Source: Mycobacterium sp. UM_CSW (GTDB lineage: Bacteria > Actinomycetota > Actinomycetes > Mycobacteriales > Mycobacteriaceae). From it: 64,000 bases of DNA. The notes under the pieces were generated by a model, which saw nothing but the letters and a program-made list of their open reading frames with translations, had not been told where the DNA came from and did no database searches. The stretch is taken from the NCBI RefSeq assembly GCF_000455205.1, contig NZ_AUWQ01000004.1, positions 36,604 through 100,603 on the forward strand. The letters are read 5' to 3'. Of this stretch, positions 10,166 to 32,877 are shown piece by piece; within the stretch, counting starts at the first letter, position 1, and every line of letters starts with the position of its first letter. The translations under genes were made by a program, and so were the position numbers.

Positions 10166-10987
10166 TCAGGCGAGCAGCGCGCCGCGCAGTCGATCCAGAT
10201 CGGAATCGGTGATGCCCGCGTCGCTCAGATAGCCGCCGAGCGAACCGAATTCGGCGTCGATGGTTTGGCGGGCGGCGGCCAGGTATTCCGGACGCACCCC
10301 GAGGACGCCGTCGGACAGCCGGGCCTCGGTGAAGGTCACCACCTCCGGGGTCAGTTCGGTATCCCCGCGCTGCTGGATCATCTCGAAGATCCGCGACCGA
10401 AGTTCGGGCACGGCGTCGTTGCTACGCAGGAAGTCGGTGACGATGGCGTCGCGATCGACGCCGATTGCTTCGAGCACGGTCGCGATCACAAAGCCGGTCC
10501 GGTCCTTGCCCGCGAAGCAGTGGGTCAGCACCGGGCGACCGGCGGCCAGCAGCGTGACGACGCGGCGCAGCGCCCGCTGCGCCCCATTGCGTGTTGGGAA
10601 TTGCCGGTACTCGTCGGTCATGAATCGGACCGCGGTGTCGTTCACCGACTCTTCCGAGCCGTCGGCTTCGCCCCTCAACAGCCGCTGGAACGCCTCCTCG
10701 TGCGGCGCCGCCGCTTCGGCCTCCGAGTCGGCCAGGTCGGGGAACGGCAGCAGGTGGACCTCGACGGCGTCGGGAACCAGCCCCGGCCCGCGCCGGGCGA
10801 CCTCGCGCGCGGCGCGCAGGTCGGCGACGTCGGTGATGCCCAGCCGGCGCAGTGTCGCCCGGCCGTCGTCGTCGAGGCGGCTCAGCTCGCCGGACCGGAA
10901 CACCCGCCCGGGCCGTAGGCCGTCGACACCGTCAGCGACGTCACGAAAGTTCCACGCGCCGGACAGTTCTCGCACGGCTTCAGCCAT
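10166..10987 (-). CDS. ptbB: secreted protein tyrosine/phosphoinositide phosphatase PtbB (MptpB)
   Basis: 273-aa orthologue of Rv0153c. The P-loop HCFAGKDRTG lies at 156-165, with catalytic Cys157 and Arg163; the neighbouring GKDR is the hallmark of this atypical phosphatase family, which also acts on phosphoinositides. The N-terminus ELSGAWNFRDVADG and the block RNGAQRALRRVVTLLAAG match MptpB closely. MptpB is an effector released into host macrophages in M. tuberculosis. The ATG at 10987 lies inside the 3' end of fadE2 (8-bp overlap), so the two are translationally coupled. Longer upstream starts in the frame would run deep into fadE2 and are rejected. Confidence 0.95.
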   Translation of the reverse strand: MAEAVRELSGAWNFRDVADGVDGLRPGRVFRSGELSRLDDDGRATLRRLGITDVADLRAAREVARRGPGLVPDAVEVHLLPFPDLADSEAEAAAPHEEAFQRLLRGEADGSEESVNDTAVRFMTDEYRQFPTRNGAQRALRRVVTLLAAGRPVLTHCFAGKDRTGFVIATVLEAIGVDRDAIVTDFLRSNDAVPELRSRIFEMIQQRGDTELTPEVVTFTEARLSDGVLGVRPEYLAAARQTIDAEFGSLGGYLSDAGITDSDLDRLRGALLA

Positions 10988-21080: not shown

Positions 21081-21794
21081 TTACTTGCCGGGCTGCCCCG
21101 ACCCGAGCGCGGCTTTGGCGGCGAGTTGCTTGGCCAAGGATACGGCGAAGGGGTTCGCGTCGCTGTAGGCACACCCCATGACATCGATCGCTACGTTGTT
21201 GGCGATCGTGAGAGCGCGTTGGCAGCGCCAGCCGATGTTTCTCTCGCTCTGTCTGGTCGCTGTCAACATTCCGCCGGAGTCATTGACCGGCCCGACGTCC
21301 CACGTGCCGCTCTTCCCCGGGTCCGGGGGGTGCGCCGTATAACTCCGATTCGAGCAGCCCCGCCAGAGCCCGGCCGCCCGCCGGTAGAAGGCCGTTGCCT
21401 GATCCGCGGTGGGAAACGCCACGACGTCCTGGTCAACGTAGTGGGCAGGTTGGTCTCCTGGCTCGAACAGGACTTGGCCCTGATAGGCGGTCCACCCGCT
21501 GCCCGCATAGGCGGGCCCGGTCGCCGGTATGGCCAACGCCACGCATTCGGGCGGTGTGCCCTCGCCTGTTGACATCTGCGTGTAGTTCCGCCCGTCCTCG
21601 ACGGTCATGCCGCTTGCGTCCATCGTGGTGTTGACCTGCTCTGTGTCGAGCAACAATCCCGGCAACGCGGAAGCCGAGATCGGCGGCGGCGGCGAAAGCG
21701 GCGCGGATGAAGCCTCCTTCGGGGCCGGACCCCCAGTGCACCCGGCCACCAGGGTGCAGGTGGCCAGAGCGGTGGCCCACCTCGACTTGTTCAT
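21081..21794 (-). CDS. lipoprotein with PknH-like extracellular sensor domain
   Basis: 237 aa. The signal peptide MNKSRWATALATCTLVAGC ends in a lipobox (LVAG-C, Cys19), so it should be lipid-anchored outside the membrane. After a Pro/Ala/Ser linker the mature part matches the PknH-like sensor pattern: LLLDTEQVNTTM, YVDQDVVAFPTADQATAF, WRGCSNRSY, and conserved cysteines that in PknH form disulfides. The ligand is unknown. A paralogue lies directly upstream on the same strand. Confidence 0.82.
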   Translation of the reverse strand: MNKSRWATALATCTLVAGCTGGPAPKEASSAPLSPPPPISASALPGLLLDTEQVNTTMDASGMTVEDGRNYTQMSTGEGTPPECVALAIPATGPAYAGSGWTAYQGQVLFEPGDQPAHYVDQDVVAFPTADQATAFYRRAAGLWRGCSNRSYTAHPPDPGKSGTWDVGPVNDSGGMLTATRQSERNIGWRCQRALTIANNVAIDVMGCAYSDANPFAVSLAKQLAAKAALGSGQPGK

Positions 21795-21855
21795 CGCAGT
21801 CCGCTGACTTTCTTTTACGTCGGGCAGCCGGGTGGCGGGACGTTAGCGCACCCCG

Positions 21856-22578
21856 TCAGTGCGCTTGCCGGGTGACGGTGGCGGCCATCTTGTCTGCGAT
21901 TTGGCCGGCTTGGTCACCGAGCTGATATGCGCAGGCATTGACGTCGAGGACCACGTTCAAGACGGCGCGCAGCACGTGTCGGCAGCTGTAACCGTTGCCG
22001 CCCTCCAGCGTGTGTGGCTGTGTGATCGCCGGGGCATCCCCGCCCAGGTTTCCGACGGACCACAGGTAGTCCCGCCCCAAATGATGGGCGGTCACGGTCT
22101 GCCCGGCGCAGGCGCGCCACTTGCCCGCCGAAGCCCTCACGAAGGCCACTGCCAATTCGGCAGACGGGAAGCTGACCGCCGCCTGACCGACACGGTGGTG
22201 CGGGTCGTCTCCCACTTCGTGCAGACCCTGGGCGCTGACCGCGGTGTATCCGCTGCCCTGATACACGGCTGCTTCGGCGACGAAGAATGCGGCGCGGCAG
22301 TCCGGGTTGGACAGCGTTCTGTCGACCGTCCATGTCGCGTGCTCGATCGGCGAGGTGGGCTGCATGTCCGAGGCGCCCATCGCGGCATTGACGTCCGCGA
22401 CGGTGAGCAGAATGGAGTCCAGTCGCTCGGATGCCGTCACCGGCGCCGGTGAGGTCGTTTGCGCGGTGGGCGTGGCACGCCCGCAGCCGGTCATCATGAC
22501 TGCCGCGACCATCAACGCGGCCGCCGCGGAGGCGCCGACGCGCCGGGGTGTGCGGGATCGGCGGGGGCACACCGGCAT
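21856..22578 (-). CDS. second lipoprotein with PknH-like extracellular sensor domain
   Basis: 240 aa, paralogue of the neighbour. The N-terminus is Arg-rich (MPVCPRRSRTPRRVG), then a hydrophobic segment ending MMTGC (lipobox, Cys about 32). The domain has LLTVADVNAAMGASDM, VGQAAVSFPSAELAVAFV, WRACAGQTV and YSCRHVLRAVLNVVLDVNACAY, with paired cysteines. TAGCAT 6 nt before the ATG and no ribosome site suggest leaderless expression. Tandem duplication of such sensor lipoproteins is common in mycobacteria; role unknown. Confidence 0.82.
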   Translation of the reverse strand: MPVCPRRSRTPRRVGASAAAALMVAAVMMTGCGRATPTAQTTSPAPVTASERLDSILLTVADVNAAMGASDMQPTSPIEHATWTVDRTLSNPDCRAAFFVAEAAVYQGSGYTAVSAQGLHEVGDDPHHRVGQAAVSFPSAELAVAFVRASAGKWRACAGQTVTAHHLGRDYLWSVGNLGGDAPAITQPHTLEGGNGYSCRHVLRAVLNVVLDVNACAYQLGDQAGQIADKMAATVTRQAH

Positions 22579-22733: not shown

Positions 22734-22799
22734 ATGGAGAAGGGTAGCCGGAACAACTCGGTAAGCATCATCAGAGCCGTGGTTAGGGCGAAATGGTGA
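22734..22799 (+). CDS. 21-aa ORF coupled to tldD, possible peptide substrate or leader
   Basis: ATG 22734 is preceded by a strong ribosome site (AAGGGGA at 22722-22728, within GAGAGAAGGGGACC). It encodes 21 residues beginning MEKGSRNNSVS and ending IIRAVVRAKW: cationic, with an amphipathic second half and a C-terminal Trp. Its TGA at 22797-22799 overlaps the tldD start region by 7 bp (ATG 22793) or by 4 bp if tldD begins at GTG 22796. TldD/TldE proteases mature ribosomal peptides in other bacteria, and exporter genes follow, so this could be a small peptide product; a translational-coupling leader is the plain alternative. Confidence 0.5.
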   Translation: MEKGSRNNSVSIIRAVVRAKW

Positions 22800-24313
22800 C
22801 ATCGAATCGGGAGATCGACGCCGAATTTCTGAGCCTTCCTCGCCGCCAGCTAGCCGACGCCGCGATGTCGGCGGCCACCGCCGCCGGGGCCACCCACGCC
22901 GACTTGCGGGTGCACCGCATCACTACCGAAGCGATCCAGCTGCGCAACGGGAGGCTGGAGACGGCGGCGTTGAACCGCGAGCTCGGCTTGGCGGTCCGGG
23001 TGATTGTCGACGGCACTTGGGGATTCGCCTCACACGCCGAGCTGGCCCCGGATGTCGCGGCGGATACCGCGCGACGGGCCGTGCGGGCGGCCACCACGCT
23101 GGCGGCGCTGAACACCGAGCCCGTTGAGCTGGCGCCCGAACTCGTGTACGCCGATGCCACCTGGGTGTCGAGCTACCAGATCGACCCGTTCACCGTTCCC
23201 ACCGCCGACAAGATCGCCGTACTGCAGGAGTATTCGGGTCGGTTGCTGGCCGGCGACGGGGTGGACCACGTCTCGGCGAACGTGACCGTCGTCAAAGAGC
23301 AAACCTTCTATGCCGACATGTTCGGTTCGTCGATCACCCAGCAGCGGGTGCGCTTGACACCGGCCTTCGAGGCCGTGGCCGTTGACGCCGCGGCGGGGTG
23401 CTTCGACACGATGCGCACGCTCGCACCCCCGATGGGACGCGGTTGGGAGGCGTTGGCCGGCGACGAAATCTGGAACTGGACCGACGAACTCGCGCAAATC
23501 CCGTCGCTGCTGGCCGAGAAGGCCAAGGCCCCCGGCGTTACCGCGGGGCCGACGGATTTGGTGATCGATCCGTCCAACCTGTGGCTGACCATTCACGAAT
23601 CAATAGGCCACGCAACCGAATACGACCGCGCCATCGGACACGAGACGGCCTACGCCGGCACGTCATTCGCCACCCCGGACATGCTGGGGACCCTGCGCTA
23701 CGGTTCGCCGGTGATGAACGTGACCGCCGATCGCACCGTCGAATTCGGCCTCGCCAGCGTCGGTTACGACGACGAGGGGGTGGCCGCCCAGAACTGGGAT
23801 CTGGTCCGCGAGGGGATATTGGTTGGCTATCAGCTCGACCGGATGTCCGCGTCACGGCTCGGGCGGCCACGCTCGAACGGCTGTTCATACGCCGACTCGC
23901 CCTATCACGTCCCGATCCAGCGGATGGCCAACGTCTCGCTACAGCCCAGCCCCGGCGACACCGGCACCGCCGACCTGATAGCGCGAGTCGACGACGGCAT
24001 CTACGTCGTGGGCGATAAGTCGTGCTCAATCGATATGCAGCGCTACAACTTTCAGTCCACCGGGCAGCGGTTCTTCCGCATTCGCGACGGTCGCCTCTGC
24101 GGTCAGCTGCGCGACGTCGCCTATCAGGCGACCACCATCGACTTCTGGAATTCGATGGAGGCCCTGGGGGGTGAGTCGACCTGGCGGCTCGGCGGCGCCT
24201 TCACGTGCGGCAAGGCCCAGCCTGGACAGTTGGCCGCCGTCAGCCACGGCTGCCCGTCAGCGCTGTTCCGCGACATCAACGTGCTCAACACCCGCGCCGG
24301 GGCCAGTCGATGA
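22793..24313 (+). CDS. tldD: TldD metalloprotease subunit
   Basis: 506-aa member of the TldD/PmbA family (peptidase U62), similar in length to M. tuberculosis Rv2315c. The zinc site HESIGH (His268, Glu269, His273) is intact, and a late Cys in VSHGCPSALF is in the place of the third ligand. In E. coli TldD and TldE form a heterodimer that cleaves the leader of microcin B17 and degrades CcdA; TldD carries the metal. The start may also be GTG 22796. Its stop overlaps the tldE start by 4 bp, and a 21-aa ORF overlaps its start. Confidence 0.92.
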   Translation: MVTSNREIDAEFLSLPRRQLADAAMSAATAAGATHADLRVHRITTEAIQLRNGRLETAALNRELGLAVRVIVDGTWGFASHAELAPDVAADTARRAVRAATTLAALNTEPVELAPELVYADATWVSSYQIDPFTVPTADKIAVLQEYSGRLLAGDGVDHVSANVTVVKEQTFYADMFGSSITQQRVRLTPAFEAVAVDAAAGCFDTMRTLAPPMGRGWEALAGDEIWNWTDELAQIPSLLAEKAKAPGVTAGPTDLVIDPSNLWLTIHESIGHATEYDRAIGHETAYAGTSFATPDMLGTLRYGSPVMNVTADRTVEFGLASVGYDDEGVAAQNWDLVREGILVGYQLDRMSASRLGRPRSNGCSYADSPYHVPIQRMANVSLQPSPGDTGTADLIARVDDGIYVVGDKSCSIDMQRYNFQSTGQRFFRIRDGRLCGQLRDVAYQATTIDFWNSMEALGGESTWRLGGAFTCGKAQPGQLAAVSHGCPSALFRDINVLNTRAGASR

Positions 24314-25683
24314 TCCCCGCACAGCAGGTCGTCGAGCTCGTTTTGGATGAGGCGGCACGGTCGGGTCGGGCCAATGAGACCCTGGTCCTGGTCACCGACC
24401 GCACCGAGGCCTCGCTGCGCTGGGCGAACAACTCGATGACCACCAACGGAATCTCGGTCAGTCGCGGCACCACCGTGATTTCCGTTGTGCGCCTCGGTGA
24501 CAGCGCGCACGTCGGCTCGCTGCGCTCCGCCGAGGTCGACCCGGCGGCGATTCCCGGGCTGGTGGCGGCGTCCCAGGAGGCGGCGCGTTCGGCTCCGGCG
24601 GCGCGCGATGCCGCACCCCTGCTCGCCGGCGGCGGCCCACCGGACGATTGGGACACGCCGGCTCGCGGCACCGGCGTCGAGGCGTTCGCCGATGTCGTTG
24701 GTCCGTTGAGCCGGGGGTTTCGTGGCGGTGACCAGTTGTACGGCTTCGCGCGCCATGTGGTGGAGACGACGTTTTTGGCCTCGTCGACCGGACTGCGGCG
24801 GCGCTACACCCAACCCACCGGTTCGGTGGAGATCACTGCCAAACGCGCTGCGGCCAGTGCGTGGGCCGGTGTCGGAACGCCGGATTTCCCGGCTGTGCCA
24901 ACAGATCTGCTGCTCGAGCGGCTGTCGACTCGCCTCGGTTGGGCGCGGCGCACCGTCGAGCTGCGGCCGGGCCGATACGAGACAATCATGCCGCCGTCGA
25001 CGGTGGCGGACATGATGATCTGCTTGCGGCTGAGGATGTCCGGCCGAGCCGCGCAGGAGGGCCGGACCGCGTTTGCGTCGGCCGGCGGCGGGACCCGGTT
25101 GGGTGATCGTCTCACCGATATGCCGCTGTCCCTGTACTCGGACCCGTCGGCCCCCGGCTTGGCGTGCTCGCCATTCATCGCGACACCGCGCTCATCGGAG
25201 ATGGTGTCGGTCTTCGACAACGGGATGGATTTCGGGCGAGTGGACTGGATCCGCGACGGGGTGATCAACGCGCTGGCCTATCCACGGGCCGCGGCCGCCG
25301 AGTTCCGGGCGCCCGTCGCGGTGGCCGCCGATAACCTGCTGATGACCGGTGGCAGCGCGGACCTCGCCGAGATGCTCGCCGGCACCGAGCGCGGGCTGCT
25401 GCTGACCACCCTGTGGTATATCCGTGAGGTCGACCCGACGACGCTCCTGCTGACCGGTGTGACCCGCGACGGTGTCTATCTGGTCGAGGACGGCGAAGTG
25501 ACGGGGGCGGTCAACAACTTTCGGTTCAGCGAGAGCCCGTTGGATCTGTTGCGGCGGGCGACCCAGGCCGGCGTCAGCGAGGCGACCCTGCCGCGTCAAT
25601 GGGGCGATTGGGCCCCTCGGGCGGCAATGCCATCGCTGCGGATCCCCGACTTTCACATGTCGTCGATAAGCCAGGCGCAGTAA
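24310..25683 (+). CDS. tldE: TldE/PmbA metalloprotease partner subunit
   Basis: 457 aa, the same length as M. tuberculosis Rv2314c. It shows the TldD/PmbA fold pattern ([52 protein letters not shown]) but no HExxxH motif, as expected for the non-catalytic TldE subunit. The ATG at 24310 overlaps the tldD stop (ATGA), which fixes the start within a longer open frame. It pairs with TldD to form the active protease. The ABC exporter genes begin 88 bp downstream. Confidence 0.92.
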
Positions 25684-25771
25684 GTGATTCCCGTCGGGGC
25701 GTGCCGTTTCCAGGTCCGGGATGCCGCGCGACTCCATCGCGACGCGCCTGGCAATATGCGACAGTACGGAA

Positions 25772-27517
25772 ATGCTCCTTGCGCTGGTGCGACGGTACGT
25801 CCGGCCGTATCGTCGGCTGGTTGCGGCGGTCGCGCTTTTGCAGTTGATAAGTGCGCTGGCCTTGCTCTACCTGCCTACGGTCAACGCGGCCATCATCGAC
25901 GACGGCGTGGCTAAAGGCGACACCGAGACCATCGTCAAGCTGGGCGCGTTGATGCTCGCGGTCACCGGTGTGCAGGTGCTGTGCAGCGCCGGGGCCGTCT
26001 ACTTGGGGTCCCGGACCGGTATGGGGTTCGGTCGCGACCTGCGTCGAGCGATCTTTCACCACGTCACCTACTTCTCTGCGCACGAGACGGCCCGGTTCGG
26101 CGCACCGTCGCTGCTGACCCGGACCACGAACGACGTCCAGCAGCTGCAGATGCTGGTGCAATTGAGCTGCACCGGGCTGATCACCGCCCCGATCATGTGC
26201 GTCGGCGGCATCGCGGTGGCCGTGCATCAAGACGCTGAGCTGTCCTGGCTGTTGGTGATCAGCATTTCGGTGCTGGCTGCATGCGACTACTGGATCGTGT
26301 CGCGCATGCTGCCGCTGTTCCGCCGCATGCAGGAGCTGGTCGACGACATCAACCGGGTTATGCGGGAACAGCTCTCCGGTATCCGGGTCATTCGGGCGTT
26401 CGCCCGGGAACCTTTTGAACGGGAGCGCTTCGGGCGGGCCAACCTCGCGCTGACAGAACGGGCGCTGCGGGCCGGCAAGTGGCAGGGGTTGATGCTGCCG
26501 CTGACCAACCTGACCATCAACGTGTCCTGCGTCGCGGTCATCTGGTTCGGCGGTCTGCGCATCGACGCCGGCCGAATGCAGGTTGGTTCGCTGATCGCGT
26601 TCCTGGTCTATTTCATGCAGATCCTGATGTCGGTGCTGGTGGCGACCTGGATCCTGATGGAGGTGCCTCGGTCATGGGTGTGCGCGAAGCGGATCGGCGA
26701 GGTGCTCTGCACCCGGCCCGCGATCACGAGCCCAGCGAACCCGAAACGTCCGCAGGCTGTGCGCGGCGTCGTGCGGATGGACCGGGTGTCGTTCTGCTAC
26801 CCGGGTGCCGATCGCCCCGTTGTACACGATTTCTCGCTGACCGCGCTGCCGGGAACCACCACCGCCATCGTCGGTTCGACCGGTTCGGGCAAGTCGACGC
26901 TGATTTCGCTGGCCTGCCGGCTCTACGACGTCACCTCGGGCTCGGTATGCCTGGACGAGGTCGATGTCCGTGACTACGACACCGAGGTGCTGTGGTCGAC
27001 GTTGGGGCTCGTGCCCCAGCGCAGCTACCTGTTCTCCGGAACCGTGGCCGACAACCTGCGATACGGCAAGGCGGACGCCACCGAGAAAGAGATGTGGCAC
27101 GCATTGAGGGTGGCCTGCGCGGAGGATTTCGTCCGCGCACACCCGGAGGGGCTGCAGATGCCGGTGACCCAGGGCGGCAACAATTTCTCCGGCGGCCAGC
27201 GACAGCGCCTCGCGATCGCCCGCGCGGTGATCCGCCGGCCGGCGGTGTACCTGTTCGACGATGCCTTCTCCGCACTGGACGTCCACACCGACGCCCGCGT
27301 CCGTGCCCGTCTTCGTGATGTCGCCGGCAATGCCACCGTAATCATTGTCGCGCAGCGGATTTCGACCGTCATCGAAGCCGACAGGGTGATCGTCATCGAC
27401 GGCGGGAAGGTCGTCGGTGACGGCACCCACGAGTCGCTCCTCACGGATTGCGCCGCCTATGCCGAGTTCGCCGACTCGCAGGCTATGACCGCCGGAACCG
27501 GGGGGTTGGCACAGTGA
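25772..27517 (+). CDS. ABC exporter half-transporter with degenerate ATP site (subunit 1)
   Basis: 581 aa: six transmembrane helices (about 1-315) and an ATPase domain. Walker [10 protein letters not shown] lies at about 368-376 and the signature FSGGQRQR at 472-479. Walker B is [10 protein letters not shown], with Asp (about 497) where the catalytic Glu should be, and the H-loop is VAQRIST, with Gln for His. These two changes are typical of the inactive site in heterodimeric exporters. The start [15 protein letters not shown] at 25772 is chosen over a longer open frame from 25721. The next gene overlaps by 4 bp. Substrate unknown; drug, lipid or peptide are all possible. Confidence 0.9.
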
Positions 27518-29436
27518 GGGCCGCGGTCCGCACTCCCGTCCGCAGCGTGGTGGAGGGACCCACGGAACGATCCCGCGATTTTCGCGGCTCGGCGATCCGG
27601 CTGGTGAGACTGCTCACCCCGCAACGCGGACTCGCGGCCGTGGTCATCTCGTTGGCGCTCGGCGGCATCGCGATCGGGGTGACCGGACCGCGGATACTGG
27701 GCCACGCCACCGACTTGCTGTTCAACGGCTTCGTCGGCCGACGGCTACCCGCCGGCATCACCAAGGAACAGGCCATCGCGGCCGCCCGCGCACGGGGCGA
27801 GAACACCTTCGCCGACCTGTTGTCCGGGATGGACATCACACCCGGCGTCGGCGTGGACTTCGGCGCCGTCGGACGTACCCTCGGGCTGGCGTTGGGGTTG
27901 TACCTGCTTGCGCCGCTACTGGTTTGGCTGCAGGTGCGGATTCTCAACGTGATCGTGCAGCGCGCCGTGCGGGCGTTGCGCGCCGAGGTCGAGGACAAGG
28001 TGCACCGGCTGCCGCTGTCCTTTTTCGACGGACGCCCACGCGGGGAGCTGCTCAGCCGGCTCACCAACGACATCGACAACCTGCAGACGTCGCTGTCGTT
28101 GACGATCAGCCAGTTATTGATAGCGGTGCTGACCGTCTTGGCGGTGTTGGCGATGATGTTGACGATCTCGCCGCTGTTGGCCGGCATCGCGTTGCTGACC
28201 ATGCCGTTGTCACTGCTGGCGACGCGGCTGATCACCAAGCGTTCGCAGCGAATGTTCGTGGCACAGTGGGCCAACACTGGGCGGCTCAACGCCCACGTCG
28301 AGGAGACCTACAGCGGTTTCACGTTGGTCAAGACCTTCGGTCACCGGGCCCGCGCGCTGGAGCGGTTCGACGAATTCAACGAAGACGTCTACCGCCCCAG
28401 CTTTCGTGCTCAGTTTCTGTCGGGCCTGCTGTCGCCGGCCACCATGTTCCTCGGTGACCTCACTTACGTCGCGGTCGCGGTAGTCGGCGGTCTGCAGGTG
28501 GCGACCGGCCAGATCACACTCGGCGGCATCCAGGCTTTCATCCAGTACGTCCGCCAGTTCAACGGCCCCTTGACCCAGGTGAGCAGCATGTACCAAACCT
28601 TGCAGTCCGGGGTGGCCAGTGCCGAGCGGGTGTTCGACCTGCTCGATGCCGCAGAGCAGACGCCCGACAGCGCTGAAGCCGTCCGGGTGCCGTACCCGAG
28701 CCCGGCGGGCGATCTCGCAACCGGCCGGGTGGAGTTCGAGCATGTCACATTCGGTTACCAGCCCGGCGTCCCCGTCATCCGGGACTTGTCGCTGGTGGCC
28801 GAACCCGGCAGCACGGTGGCGATCGTCGGACCGACCGGAGCGGGCAAGACCACGCTGGTGAACCTGCTGATGCGCTTCTACGACGTCGACTCCGGCCGGA
28901 TCCTGATCGACGGGGTCGACGTCGCGACGCTCAACCGGCGCTCGCTGCGCTCCCGGATCGGGATGGTGCTGCAAGACACCTGGCTGTTCGGCGGGACGAT
29001 CGCCGAGAACATCGGCTATGGGCGGCCCGACGCCGGGCGGGACGAGATCATCGAGGCGGCCAAGGCCGCATACGTGGACCGGATCGTGCGGACGCTGCCC
29101 AACGGTTACGACACCTGGGTCAGCGACGACGCCGCCAACATCAGTACCGGTGAAAAGCAACTGATCACCATTGCCCGGGCTTTTCTGGCGCGCCCCCAGT
29201 TGCTCATCCTGGACGAGGCGACCAGCTCCGTCGACACCCGCACCGAGCTGCTCATCGCGCACGCCACTCGCGAGCTGCGCCGCGAACGCACGAGTTTCAT
29301 TATTGCCCATCGCCTTTCGACGATCCGCGATGCCGACTTGATTCTGGTGCTCGAGGCCGGGCGGATCGTCGAGCGGGGCACGCATGCCGAGTTGATGGCC
29401 CGCCGCGGCGCGTACTACGCGATGACCCGCGTTTAG
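27514..29436 (+). CDS. ABC exporter half-transporter with active ATP site (subunit 2)
   Basis: 640 aa, beginning with GTG at 27514 (GTGA overlap with subunit 1). Walker [10 protein letters not shown] is at about 439, Walker [13 protein letters not shown] with the catalytic Glu at 568, and the H-loop His at 599. The signature is ISTGEKQ (543) in place of LSGGQ. This matches subunit 1: the canonical site is built from this subunit's Walker/H motifs and subunit 1's FSGGQ. A roughly 60-residue insert after the first helix ([19 protein letters not shown]) is seen in related actinobacterial exporters. It ends 28 bp from the stop of the convergent cupin gene. Confidence 0.92.
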
Positions 29437-29464
29437 CGCGACGTGCCCCGCCCTACCGAAAATG

Positions 29465-30505
29465 TCATGCGCCGGTATCAGCGGTGAAAAGCGCGCTCTC
29501 TTCCAAGACCTCGGCGATCGCCCAGCGCTCCTCCTCGGTCAGGTGTCCCGGTAGCTCCTGCACCTCGAATCGGGATGTGTTGACGCAGAAGGCGATCGCC
29601 TCGCGCGCGAGGCGGGAAACGGCCAGTTCTTCAACCCAACCGCGGGGGGTCTCGACGCCGAGAGCGACCAAGTCGCCGGTTTCTCGATAGTCGAGCGTCA
29701 GATTCTCGTGGGAACGAGTAAGGGTCCGCGTTCTCGGCCGACCGGCACTGCTCACGTCGGTTCTGCCCAGGCCGTGGATAAATCGTCGGGTGGACAAGGA
29801 ACTTTGCCGGACGCAACGCTCGAGTAGGTCCCCGACCGGAACGGCCTCGACTTGGGCGAGGAACTCGGCGATCGCCCGGATCTTGAGCTGGCGACGTCGA
29901 GTCGCAATGACCTCGTCGTAGGGATCGTCATGACCAGTCCGCCGGCGGGCGGCGAAGTTATCCAGGAGTGGCAGACATTGCTCTTGGTCCGTCAATTGCT
30001 CGCCATCGCGCGGACTGCTGACATGAAGCGACAGCGACCAGCGGTCCGTCGGGTTGCGTGGATCGTGGATGCACGGCTCGTAGATGAAGCCGACTTGTCC
30101 AGCGGGAGCGTCGAAGCGATTCTTCGGCACGAGGGTCTGACGGCGGTAAGACTCCTCGCGGTCGTAGGTCTCGACTATCAGCTCGTTGTGGCAGACGCCG
30201 GTGATCGTCCAGGCCGTGTGCTCGTGCGCCCCAGCATTGCGACCGGGCGGCCAGTAGCCGAACGCAAAGCGAATTCCAAAGCCGGGCACGGTGAAGAACG
30301 GAACCAGTCCCGGACGAAGGCCCCGCCGTTGTTCGAGCCGGGTCAGCTCGTATGCCAGGCAATCGACGAGGAACTCTTCGTCACGAACGGCGGTGGTTAC
30401 CGCCGCCCGGGCGGCAAGGACCGCATCCTTTTCCGGATGCTCCCGCGCATTCGCGTCGGGGAATGCGCGCCGGTCAAACAGCTCACACAGGTCGTCGAGC
30501 TTCAC
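29465..30505 (-). CDS. cupin, cysteine-dioxygenase-like enzyme with C-terminal module
   Basis: 346 aa. The first half is a cysteine-dioxygenase-type cupin: FGYWPPGRNAGAHEHTAWT with His94 and His96, and SLSLHVSSP with His161, giving a 3-His iron site like thiol dioxygenases. Residues about 265-340 form a separate module (LDYRETGDLVALG, AREAIAFC, FEVQELPGHLTEEE) that is also found at the C-terminus of the next gene upstream. Start is GTG 30505 with the ribosome site AGGAGG 7 nt before it. It is third in a minus-strand operon after the Cys-rich peptide and the GRDP-like gene. A role in oxidising a thiol, perhaps of the peptide, is inference. Confidence 0.72.
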   Translation of the reverse strand: MKLDDLCELFDRRAFPDANAREHPEKDAVLAARAAVTTAVRDEEFLVDCLAYELTRLEQRRGLRPGLVPFFTVPGFGIRFAFGYWPPGRNAGAHEHTAWTITGVCHNELIVETYDREESYRRQTLVPKNRFDAPAGQVGFIYEPCIHDPRNPTDRWSLSLHVSSPRDGEQLTDQEQCLPLLDNFAARRRTGHDDPYDEVIATRRRQLKIRAIAEFLAQVEAVPVGDLLERCVRQSSLSTRRFIHGLGRTDVSSAGRPRTRTLTRSHENLTLDYRETGDLVALGVETPRGWVEELAVSRLAREAIAFCVNTSRFEVQELPGHLTEEERWAIAEVLEESALFTADTGA

Positions 30506-30562
30506 GGAGCACCTCCTGGACTTTATCCGTCGTTCACGCGGCGCGAAGCGGCGCGGCGGCTG

Positions 30563-31276
30563 TCAACCCACACGGAGAACCTTGGTGTCAACCAGCGCCG
30601 CGACCAGCGCGATCTTCTCCTCATCGGTCAGATCGCCCGGCAGTTCACGGACATAGAAGGCACCCGTGCCGGCGATGAATCGCACCGCTTCCCGGGCGAT
30701 GTCGTTCACACTCAGAAAAACTCGACCGCTGCGGTCGATGAGGTTGGCCATCCCGTCGACCGAGTCCAACGCCAGTTGCCCGCAGTGGCGGTTGACGATG
30801 CGCCGGTGCGGCGTTACCCAGCTGGAGTCGTCCCAGACCCGCGGCAGCTCCACACCGAAGATGTCCAGGTACCGGTCGCAGAACTCTTCGATCGTCGCCT
30901 CGGGAGCGGCGCCGAGGGAGCCGCCCGGCGCATTGCTCGGGAAATGGTGGCGGTAACTACCGAAATACTTGGTGCAGAAGCAGCTGTATTCCACGGTAAA
31001 AAGTACAAACTGGTGCCATACCTCATCCACGTACGTGGAATGCATTTTCCAGGTTTTCGTCCGATCGACATGGGTTAGCACCAAATACCGCTTCACCTCT
31101 GTGAAAAGCGCGCAAGCCTCCTCATCGGTTTCGACAAAGCGATCTTTGACCAGCTTCTCGATAAGGAATGGCGCCTGGTACTCGATTGCCCCGAGTGCAT
31201 CGGGCGGGACATCCGCCACTAAGCCGGCCCCGGTCACTCGAGGACTACCGGGGTCGCCGCTAACCAGGGTAGGCAC
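30563..31276 (-). CDS. GRDP-like protein with the same C-terminal module as the cupin
   Basis: 237 aa. Residues about 25-145 resemble the glycine-rich-domain-protein-like family (PF07173 type), with the block HSTYVDEVWHQFVLFTVEY (79-97) and conserved Cys99/Cys101. Residues about 166-236 (LALDSVDGMANL, AREAVRFI, FYVRELPGDLTDEE) match the tail of the cupin. The start is GTG 31276, 18 bp after the stop of the 61-aa peptide gene; no strong ribosome site is seen, so translation may be coupled. The biochemical role of GRDP-like proteins is not known; the shared tail suggests that both proteins bind the same partner. Confidence 0.68.
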   Translation of the reverse strand: MPTLVSGDPGSPRVTGAGLVADVPPDALGAIEYQAPFLIEKLVKDRFVETDEEACALFTEVKRYLVLTHVDRTKTWKMHSTYVDEVWHQFVLFTVEYSCFCTKYFGSYRHHFPSNAPGGSLGAAPEATIEEFCDRYLDIFGVELPRVWDDSSWVTPHRRIVNRHCGQLALDSVDGMANLIDRSGRVFLSVNDIAREAVRFIAGTGAFYVRELPGDLTDEEKIALVAALVDTKVLRVG

Positions 31277-31294
31277 TACCCGAGGCGTGTTTAG

Positions 31295-31480
31295 CTACGT
31301 TTGCGCCGTGGCCCAACCCGACTGAGCGGGTTGCTCTACGACTCGTTCGTCTTCGCAGCGGCAACTACACGTTCCGGTGCAAAGTGCGCCGGAACCCGGG
31401 CCCGGATGCAGCACGATCCGGAGACGGCCGGCATGGGTTTCCTTGATCTGAGTACTGTCGGTGCTTGAAATCACGCTCAT
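31295..31480 (-). CDS. 61-aa Cys-rich small peptide, candidate RiPP precursor
   Basis: The ATG at 31480 begins MSVISSTDSTQIKETHAGRL, an uncharged-to-mixed leader-like part, followed by a Gly/Pro hinge (HPGPGSG) and the cluster CTGTCSCRC (Cys34, 38, 40, 42), then an acidic and Gln/Ser-rich tail ending ATAQT. No transmembrane or Sec signal is visible. TACATT 8 nt upstream of the ATG, without a ribosome site, suggests leaderless expression. ATGs at 31498 and 31531 are possible but add hydrophobic residues before the promoter-like sequence. Position as first gene of an operon with a thiol-dioxygenase-like cupin supports a precursor role; a small metal- or thiol-binding protein is the alternative. 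Confidence 0.55.
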   Translation of the reverse strand: MSVISSTDSTQIKETHAGRLRIVLHPGPGSGALCTGTCSCRCEDERVVEQPAQSGWATAQT

Positions 31481-31947: not shown

Positions 31948-32877
31948 ATGGCCATGCCAGCGACAACCCCGATTGCTGTCACGAAATTGGGCACGCACAT
32001 CGGTGCCCGCATCGATGGCGTGCTGCTGGACGGCGACCTCGACGCGACCGCGGTCGATCAGATCCACCAGGCGCTATTGCGTCACAAGGTGATCTTTTTC
32101 AGGGGTCAGCACCACCTCGACGACGAGCGGCAGTACGCCTTTTCCAAGTTGCTCGGCGCGCCGCTCGACCAGCTGGCTTTCGACTCTGGCTACCGCAAGG
32201 CAACCATCTGGCACACCGACCAGACGTTCGCCGTGAATTACCCCAAGGCGGCAATACTTCGCGCCATCGCCCTGCCGAGCTACGGCGGATCAACCCTCTG
32301 GGCCTCGACTGCGGCGGCCTACGCGGCCCTGCCCGAGCCGCTCAGGCACCTGACCGAAAACCTGTGGGCGCTGCACAGCAACCGCTACGACCAGGTCGGA
32401 CACTTTCAAGGCCTGGGCCACGTGCTCATCCCGGGTGGCCCCCCTGTCCGCCATCCCACCGCGGGCAAGATTGACGTTCCGGGCGACCAGCAACCGCTGC
32501 GGCCGGCCCCGGCGACGCCGGACTTTCGCACCGAGCATCCGGTCGTGCGAGTGCATCCCGAAACCGGCGAACGAGCATTGCTTCTCGGGCAATGGGTGCG
32601 GGGATTGCTGGATCTCGAGAACCACGAATCGCAGGTACTTCTGGAACTGCTGCATAGGCGTATCACGTTGCCGGAGAATACGATCCAATGGCACTGGGAA
32701 CCTGGCGACGTCGCGATTTGGGATAACTACGCAACTCAACACCGTGCGGTTGACGACTACGACAACGAGCGCCGTCTGATGCATCGGGTCACCTTGATCG
32801 GCGAGGTGCCCGTAGATATTCACGGGAGAGAGAGTAGGTCCGTCAGCGGCGGGAAGCTCGAACCGGTTGCAGGCTGA
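31948..32877 (+). CDS. TauD/TfdA family Fe(II)/2-oxoglutarate dioxygenase, Rv3406-like
   Basis: 309 aa. The iron-binding HxD is in IWHTDQTF and the distal His in [10 protein letters not shown]; the 2-oxoglutarate-binding Arg is likely in the MHRVTL block. Segments such as [42 protein letters not shown] and PGDVAIWDN are close to M. tuberculosis Rv3406, an alkyl-sulfatase of this family. A sulfur-scavenging or related oxidative cleavage role is therefore likely. AAAGGA 8 nt upstream fixes the start. Divergent from the Cys-rich peptide operon; there is no direct sign that it belongs to it. Confidence 0.9.

Follow-up and report, generated by a model that had tools for sequence, protein, structure and literature searches.

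The minus strand of a 64,000-nucleotide stretch of Mycobacterium sp. UM_CSW (contig NZ_AUWQ01000004.1, positions 36,604 to 100,603; this whole stretch is called the window) carries a three-gene operon that, judged from sequence, is on balance likely to be a cassette of the kind that makes ribosomally synthesized and post-translationally modified peptides (RiPPs). It would consist of a precursor peptide, a protein labeled GRDP-like (for glycine-rich domain protein) and an optional thiol dioxygenase of cupin type, with leader trimming by a TldD/TldE (TldDE) protease and export by an ATP-binding cassette (ABC) transporter apparently added at this locus. The cassette is real and, in the literature searched, undescribed: in open-licence literature (titles and abstract openings) GRDP combined with RiPP, bacteriocin or gene cluster gave no match, and cysteine or thiol dioxygenase combined with RiPP gave nothing on such a system. 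The joint cluster of TldDE, ABC and peptide genes is a local recruitment in the window genome and M. palustre and is not the rule. The members of the minus-strand operon and the segments on which the argument turns are as follows (our handles for genomes, contigs and loci begin with G, C and L).

31295-31480, minus strand: Cys-rich peptide of 61 residues, ATG start, proposed RiPP precursor (family found upstream of GRDP genes; purifying selection)
31415-31429, minus strand: GRLRI, peptide residues 18-22, proposed leader recognition motif (motif conservation)
31355-31381, minus strand: Cys core CTGTCSCRC, peptide residues 34-42, the same in M. palustre
30563-31276, minus strand: GRDP-like protein of 237 residues, constant partner of the peptide (34 sequences aligned)
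30566-30814, minus strand: C-terminal domain of the GRDP-like protein, common with the cupin (hhalign), putatively leader-binding
29465-30505, minus strand: cupin of 346 residues, cysteine dioxygenase (CDO)-like (eight aligned homologues; hhalign)
30002-30277, minus strand: CDO-like core of the cupin, residues 77-168 (hhalign)
29468-29719, minus strand: C-terminal domain of the cupin, common with the GRDP-like protein (hhalign)

The loci compared here were collected through the GRDP-like protein. With a six-row GRDP alignment as query, matches above 200 bits were obtained in 28 of 297 genomes of the genus (31 loci), and any match at all in 82 of the 297, mostly to short domains. Across the phylum (396 genomes) a match above 200 bits was found only in the window genome and in G272, a genome of the same class, with 15 genomes giving any match. 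Outside the genus, G272 contributes one cassette, as do a Streptomyces plasmid (of two similar records that matched, one was examined) and a contig of a Bacteroidota metagenome-assembled genome (MAG), for a total of 34 loci; this set leaves out the M. palustre locus (L033), whose GRDP is fragmented, and likewise the broken GRDP copies of G039, the third G667 locus and the second G687 locus. The whole block is present in M. palustre in the same order and with 77-92% protein identity, peptide, cupin and GRDP genes are also found together at L128 (the genome of the same class) and L134 (the Streptomyces plasmid), and a cupin with a GRDP gene in the Bacteroidota MAG (L034).

An open reading frame (ORF) carrying [G/D]RLx[I/V/M] followed by Cys lies upstream of the full-length GRDP gene at 33 of the 34 loci, the single miss being L034, a contig end at which the sequence begins 117 bases before the cupin. 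As background, this loose rule picks out 81 of 1025 random anchors and, of 521 other ORFs with at least 200 residues, 44. A strict rule, [VAIN]GRL[TRAISNM][IV] close upstream, holds at 28 of the 34 loci versus none of 1062 random anchors and none of the 521 other ORFs, and the earliest form of the rule gave 29 of 34 loci versus 8 of 405 stretches; the pattern was first spotted in these same loci, and the controls protect against chance, not against the choice of pattern. The association holds in the reverse direction as well. When the 45-residue peptide of L106 was searched against the 297 genus genomes, 11 matches were returned in 10 genomes and all 11 adjoin a GRDP gene (nine intact, two broken in G039 and at the second G687 locus), this search reaching nearer relatives only, with the window peptide, for example, beyond its reach. 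In a clustering of neighboring genes GRDP was recovered for 11 of the 12 peptide types, ORF picking having overlooked it in the remaining one.

The motif-bearing ORF is either adjacent to the GRDP gene, a few hundred bases away, or separated from it by the cupin (L037, L103, L128, L134). Among 19 hand-picked representatives the motif R and L are present in all 19 and the G in 18, with varied flanks and cores, and the first Cys is found 12-29 residues past the motif start, 16 being the commonest spacing (7/19) and that of the window peptide. Comparison of the window peptide with that of M. palustre gives a ratio of nonsynonymous to synonymous substitution rates (dN/dS) of 0.21 with an identical Cys core; the peptide is under purifying selection between the two and is more than a chance ORF. 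Some precursors are longer, about 167-178 residues (203 for the longest ORF at L103), and an N-terminal precursor domain is common to L037, L128 and L134 by clustering and, by eye, also to L103, L036 and L105; at L128 the N-terminal part and the Cys part lie in different frames. Long Ser/Thr/Asn-rich precursors (221-306 residues) with the GRL motif and one or two Cys only are found at L040, L041 and L120-L124, a subtype that may represent surface proteins instead of peptides. The family as a whole combines a ribosomal precursor, a constant leader motif and a variable core, as expected of RiPPs. No signature enzyme of an established RiPP class, YcaO or other named maturase was found among the ten block proteins scanned against Pfam and NCBIfam, so that membership among the RiPPs would be as a new class.

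The 34 aligned GRDP sequences contain conserved D, W and H residues. The label itself, taken from the original prediction, corresponds to no Pfam family: GRDP-family matches (PF07173, which we take to be the family of plant-type glycine-rich domain proteins) were found neither for the window protein nor for its relatives or the E. coli homologue, and the window protein gave a single chance-level Pfam match (E=0.25) and nothing else in Pfam or NCBIfam. At the E. coli match, one RefSeq record carries the annotation 'glycine-rich domain-containing protein'. Sequence search of the PDB returned a best E of 2.9 for each of the GRDP-like protein and the cupin. A Salinicoccus protein (L035) also matches GRDP, partially and at 29%.

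The cupin is present at 7 of the 34 GRDP loci. In the eight aligned homologues (window, M. palustre, G087, G658, G608, G272, the Streptomyces plasmid and the Bacteroidota MAG) HEHTAW, CIH and the downstream H161 are invariant. For the cupin and the peptide, comparison with Pfam and NCBIfam returned nothing up to E=1, which for the cupin includes PF05995. Profile comparison of the cupin core with 28 PF05995-type ORFs gives 96.0% (hhalign, E=4.8e-9), and a repeat with 27 ORFs, without L047 (originally found with the cupin), gives 95.5% (E=1.4e-8), the control comparisons giving 0.1-2.0%. The His ligands align with those of cysteine dioxygenase type I, as do the HxH, downstream IH and SLH..SP motifs; the position that we take to be that of the CDO catalytic Tyr holds no Tyr in the cupin. 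Unlike CDO cupins, the window cupin is too divergent for Pfam, carries an extra C-terminal domain in common with the GRDP-like protein and adjoins the GRDP gene at eight of eight loci, though these loci were mostly found via GRDP. By the profile comparisons and the missing Pfam match, the cupin is a distant relative of cysteine dioxygenase type I and not a member.

Where a cupin is present and the peptide is readable (six loci), 4-6 Cys come after the motif, compared with 1-3 Cys in 25 of the 27 other cores (one-sided Mann-Whitney p=0.0002, uncorrected for kinship among loci that are related). Higher Cys counts at cupin loci are what a Cys-directed enzyme predicts. In addition, the C-terminal tails of the cupin and the GRDP-like protein match each other (hhalign 98.5%, E=1.8e-15), confirming the common tail that had been noted for the two minus-strand enzymes, and this shared domain may dock the xGRLxI motif of the peptide.

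Cys-rich tails also occur on GRDP domains elsewhere. Among 37 distinct GRDP-domain ORFs outside the cassette (38 rows, one gene appearing twice, being those that the searches happened to return) 16 have at least 2 Cys in the last 40 residues, compared with at most 1 Cys in each of the 34 cassette GRDPs. Our impression is that one GRDP domain serves a Cys peptide, either fused to it or encoded next door. The 7.9-kb mobilizable E. coli plasmid pHUSEC41-3 (NC_018997.1, L133 391-3592) encodes an ABC transporter, a JmjC cupin and a GRDP-domain protein to which a Cys/Gly tail is fused; at least 80% of this region is covered in 28 of the 5426 E. coli genomes searched. This locus is possibly a related peptide system in E. 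coli: like the window locus it combines a GRDP-domain protein, an ABC transporter and a cupin, but its Cys tail is fused to GRDP, its cupin is of JmjC type and its (incomplete) plasmid annotation contains no TldDE.

These same features admit an explanation without modification, in which the peptide binds metal in the manner of a metallothionein, with the GRDP-like protein serving as a scaffold or metal chaperone and the cupin sensing thiols or metal. The CxxxCxCxC spacing of the window core and the conserved D, W and H of GRDP fit such a metal-binding role, as do the tails, CGCSGKGCGAGCSC among them, to which GRDP domains are fused elsewhere. We nevertheless regard it as unlikely, given that 25 of the 27 cupin-less cores hold just 1-3 Cys and that a constant motif outside the Cys region together with two domain-sharing enzymes resembles leader recognition. 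The peptide and GRDP genes might instead form a toxin-antitoxin or defense pair, as a small gene upstream of a larger one, a patchy distribution and occurrence on a plasmid would allow. PADLOC gave no match for the five proteins scanned, and such a pair would leave the variable Cys cores and the CDO-like enzyme unexplained, making it a very improbable account. PHROGs likewise gave no matches for four proteins, and no relatives were found in viral contigs.

The genes proposed to trim and export the product of the RiPP-like cassette lie on the opposite strand, with 28 bp between the end of the last of them and the convergent cupin stop.

22793-24313, plus strand: TldD metalloprotease, second copy (PmbA_TldD in Pfam; 81% to the other copy at G000:C2)
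24310-25683, plus strand: TldE, second copy (PmbA_TldD in Pfam; 75% to the other copy at G000:C2)
25721-27517, plus strand: ABC1, exporter subunit with degenerate ATP site, second copy (ABC_membrane and ABC_tran; 70% to the copy at G000:C63:1777-3537)
27514-29436, plus strand: ABC2, exporter subunit with canonical Walker B, second copy (Pfam ABC exporter; GTG start at 27514; 73% to the copy at G000:C63:3570-5414)

The original prediction had placed two convergent operons 28 bp apart with these genes in these places, which is borne out, and its TldD/TldE and ABC identities agree with Pfam. It had also described overlaps of 4-7 bp at most plus-strand junctions; this is correct for tldD/tldE and ABC1/ABC2 (4 bp each) and incorrect for tldE and ABC1, which are separated by a 37 bp gap. 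TldD keeps its HExxxH (HESIGH) and is partnered by TldE. The two ABC proteins are both fusions of transmembrane and nucleotide-binding domains, and, read by eye, ABC1 combines SGGQ with a D-D Walker B and an H-loop Q, and ABC2 combines STGEK with D-E and H, so that by motif the predicted asymmetry of a heterodimeric exporter with one degenerate ATP site is observed.

All four genes are second copies. Of 148 relatives, 133 have a TldD match, and within the genus a second intact copy is listed for the window genome only; several genomes of other families list two more-distant TldD copies. Among 10 genomes checked, a second TldE copy is found in the window genome and M. palustre only. In the TldD tree the cluster copies of these two group together (support 1.0) next to that of G083 (0.88), and the cluster copy branches apart from the window genome's own other copy, indicating that it is not a recent tandem duplication. 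Homologues at E<1e-150 are present in 95 (ABC1) and 96 (ABC2) of 98 genus genomes, and the other ABC1/ABC2 pair of the window genome lies together at C63. No comparable ABC pair was found within 15-20 kb of TldDE at 20 loci of other genomes or at the window genome's own C2 copy, the surroundings holding weak ABC matches only (at most 46% over short stretches). Two pairs that are apart elsewhere have thus been brought together beside this cassette.

Among cassette loci the ABC pair adjoins in the window and M. palustre only, some loci ending at contig ends where such absences are weaker. TldDE lies 1.5-2 kb from the cassette in G559, G625 and G666, whose copies group together in the TldD tree, and 12 kb from it in G547, being the sole TldDE copy found in each of these four genomes. 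In G547 (L115 4837-9067) genes that are phage-like by eye lie between the native TldDE and the cassette; the three close-TldDE relatives are without them. The predicted RiPP-like cluster is thus strengthened as regards the minus operon (33/34 loci, 11/11 reverse matches), but the joint TldDE-ABC-peptide cluster is rejected as a general rule. Two observations had been named in advance as telling against the latter. The first is made here, peptide and GRDP genes (with or without cupin) being usually found without tldDE and ABC genes nearby; the second is not, since the TldDE-ABC half consists of second copies and is not a housekeeping locus.

The local nature of the combination raises the question of whether the operons are simply unrelated neighbors, the TldDE-ABC genes having been separately acquired and the minus operon alone being the peptide cassette. 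Relative to M. palustre the synonymous divergence (dS) of the plus operon (22793-29436) is 0.27-0.29, whereas the minus operon and two flanking genes show about twice as much (0.47-0.58), which suggests a different history or codon constraint; the two operons may thus differ in history. The restriction of the adjoining ABC pair to the window and M. palustre is in line with unrelated operons, as is the belief, cited in a review (PMC10885120), that TldD/E proteases also serve the cell in other ways. Yet two pairs that are apart elsewhere are joined exactly here, purifying selection acts on both operons in two diverged species, and TldDE adjoins the cassette in a second clade too. We consider a chance neighborhood rather doubtful, if a serious contender.

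Known systems bear on the role of TldDE. According to the same review (PMC10885120), TldDE trims the microcin B17 leader up to the modified core, the TldD/E proteins for microcin B17, klebsazolicin and McC-Yps are encoded outside their clusters, and a TldD/E homologue lies inside the ammosamide cluster. Since TldD/E is found outside known RiPP clusters, its absence at other cassette loci does not refute a role. The window locus resembles the microcin B17, klebsazolicin and McC-Yps systems in having a TldD/E heterodimer with HExxxH and a short precursor; unlike theirs, its block is without YcaO or a named maturase in the ten proteins scanned, and its TldDE copy adjoins the peptide where theirs are encoded elsewhere.

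Several observations weigh against the RiPP-like cassette with added protease and exporter. The cupin is missing at 27 of the 34 loci, and the TldDE-ABC combination is present in the window only of the 34 in the stretches examined, some of them cut by contig ends; only peptide and GRDP are thus general. G006 and G057 also list second ABC pairs, so duplication of the ABC pair is not special to this cluster, a point that also favors unrelated operons. Cores with 6 Cys occur without a cupin at L036 and L105 (one type). The cupin recurs in four peptide types, but an ABC ATPase family and one more family are found in just as many; recurrence alone thus does not single out the cupin, while adjacency to GRDP and the shared domain do. 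The GRDP frame is interrupted in M. palustre (L033 10001-10710, near 10215; a sequencing error or real) and GRDP frames are also broken in G039, at the second G687 locus and at the third G667 locus. Three of the 16 Cys tails on GRDP domains outside the cassette (L024, L029, L031) are of a short mycobacterial form, in which the Cys are not tail- or core-like. Two enzymes of one cluster with a common, putatively leader-binding domain recall RiPP enzymes bearing a PqqD-type RiPP recognition element, but this element is not supported as the identity of the shared tail, its profile comparisons giving just 2.5% and 0.2%. AlphaFold models, built from few input sequences, have a mean predicted local distance difference test score (pLDDT) of 40.4 for the GRDP-like protein and 35.2 for the cupin and are unusable.

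Two further ORFs lie at the edges of the block.

31948-32877, plus strand: TauD-family dioxygenase, possible extra member (TauD in Pfam)
22734-22799, plus strand: 21-residue ORF, judged not a gene (no counterpart at the syntenic M. palustre place)

M. palustre (84%) and G608 (59%; L107 13110-13985) likewise have a TauD homologue close to the cassette, and this dioxygenase is perhaps a further member. The 21-residue ORF had been predicted as the first member of the plus operon and was considered as a peptide gene; it is rejected as either, being missing at the syntenic M. palustre locus. Two tandem PknH_C-domain proteins (21081-22578), lipoprotein-like by eye, flank the plus operon, as they do in M. 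palustre.

If the minus operon is a RiPP-like cassette, the peptide would dock in a strand-like manner on its partner enzymes by the constant xGRLxI motif, presenting a variable Cys core most often about 16 residues further on. The GRDP-like protein, as the constant partner, would probably serve in core maturation or as a carrier. At loci of the Cys-rich subtype the cupin would be brought to the peptide through the domain that it has in common with the GRDP-like protein, and may oxidize the core Cys thiols or form a bond from them. The second copy of TldDE would then most likely trim the leader up to the modified core, and the second copy of the heterodimeric ABC exporter would most likely export the product. 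More tentatively, and with more doubt than confidence, we propose a new RiPP class defined by an xGRLxI leader, GRDP as universal maturation partner and a peptide-directed thiol dioxygenase making oxidized cysteines. It would exist in a free form (mycobacteria, Streptomyces plasmid) and in one where GRDP itself bears the Cys tail (E. coli plasmids, Sutcliffiella, actinobacterial genomes), the window form having captured its own protease and exporter.

The cassette, patchy yet recurrent in the genus (28/297 genomes), would offer a testable entry to the ribosomal peptide natural products of mycobacteria. It also provides a handle on the GRDP domain and, for RiPP biosynthesis, a candidate dioxygenase of peptide cysteines, and the arrangement in the window suggests a route by which a housekeeping protease and exporter may be recruited into a cluster.

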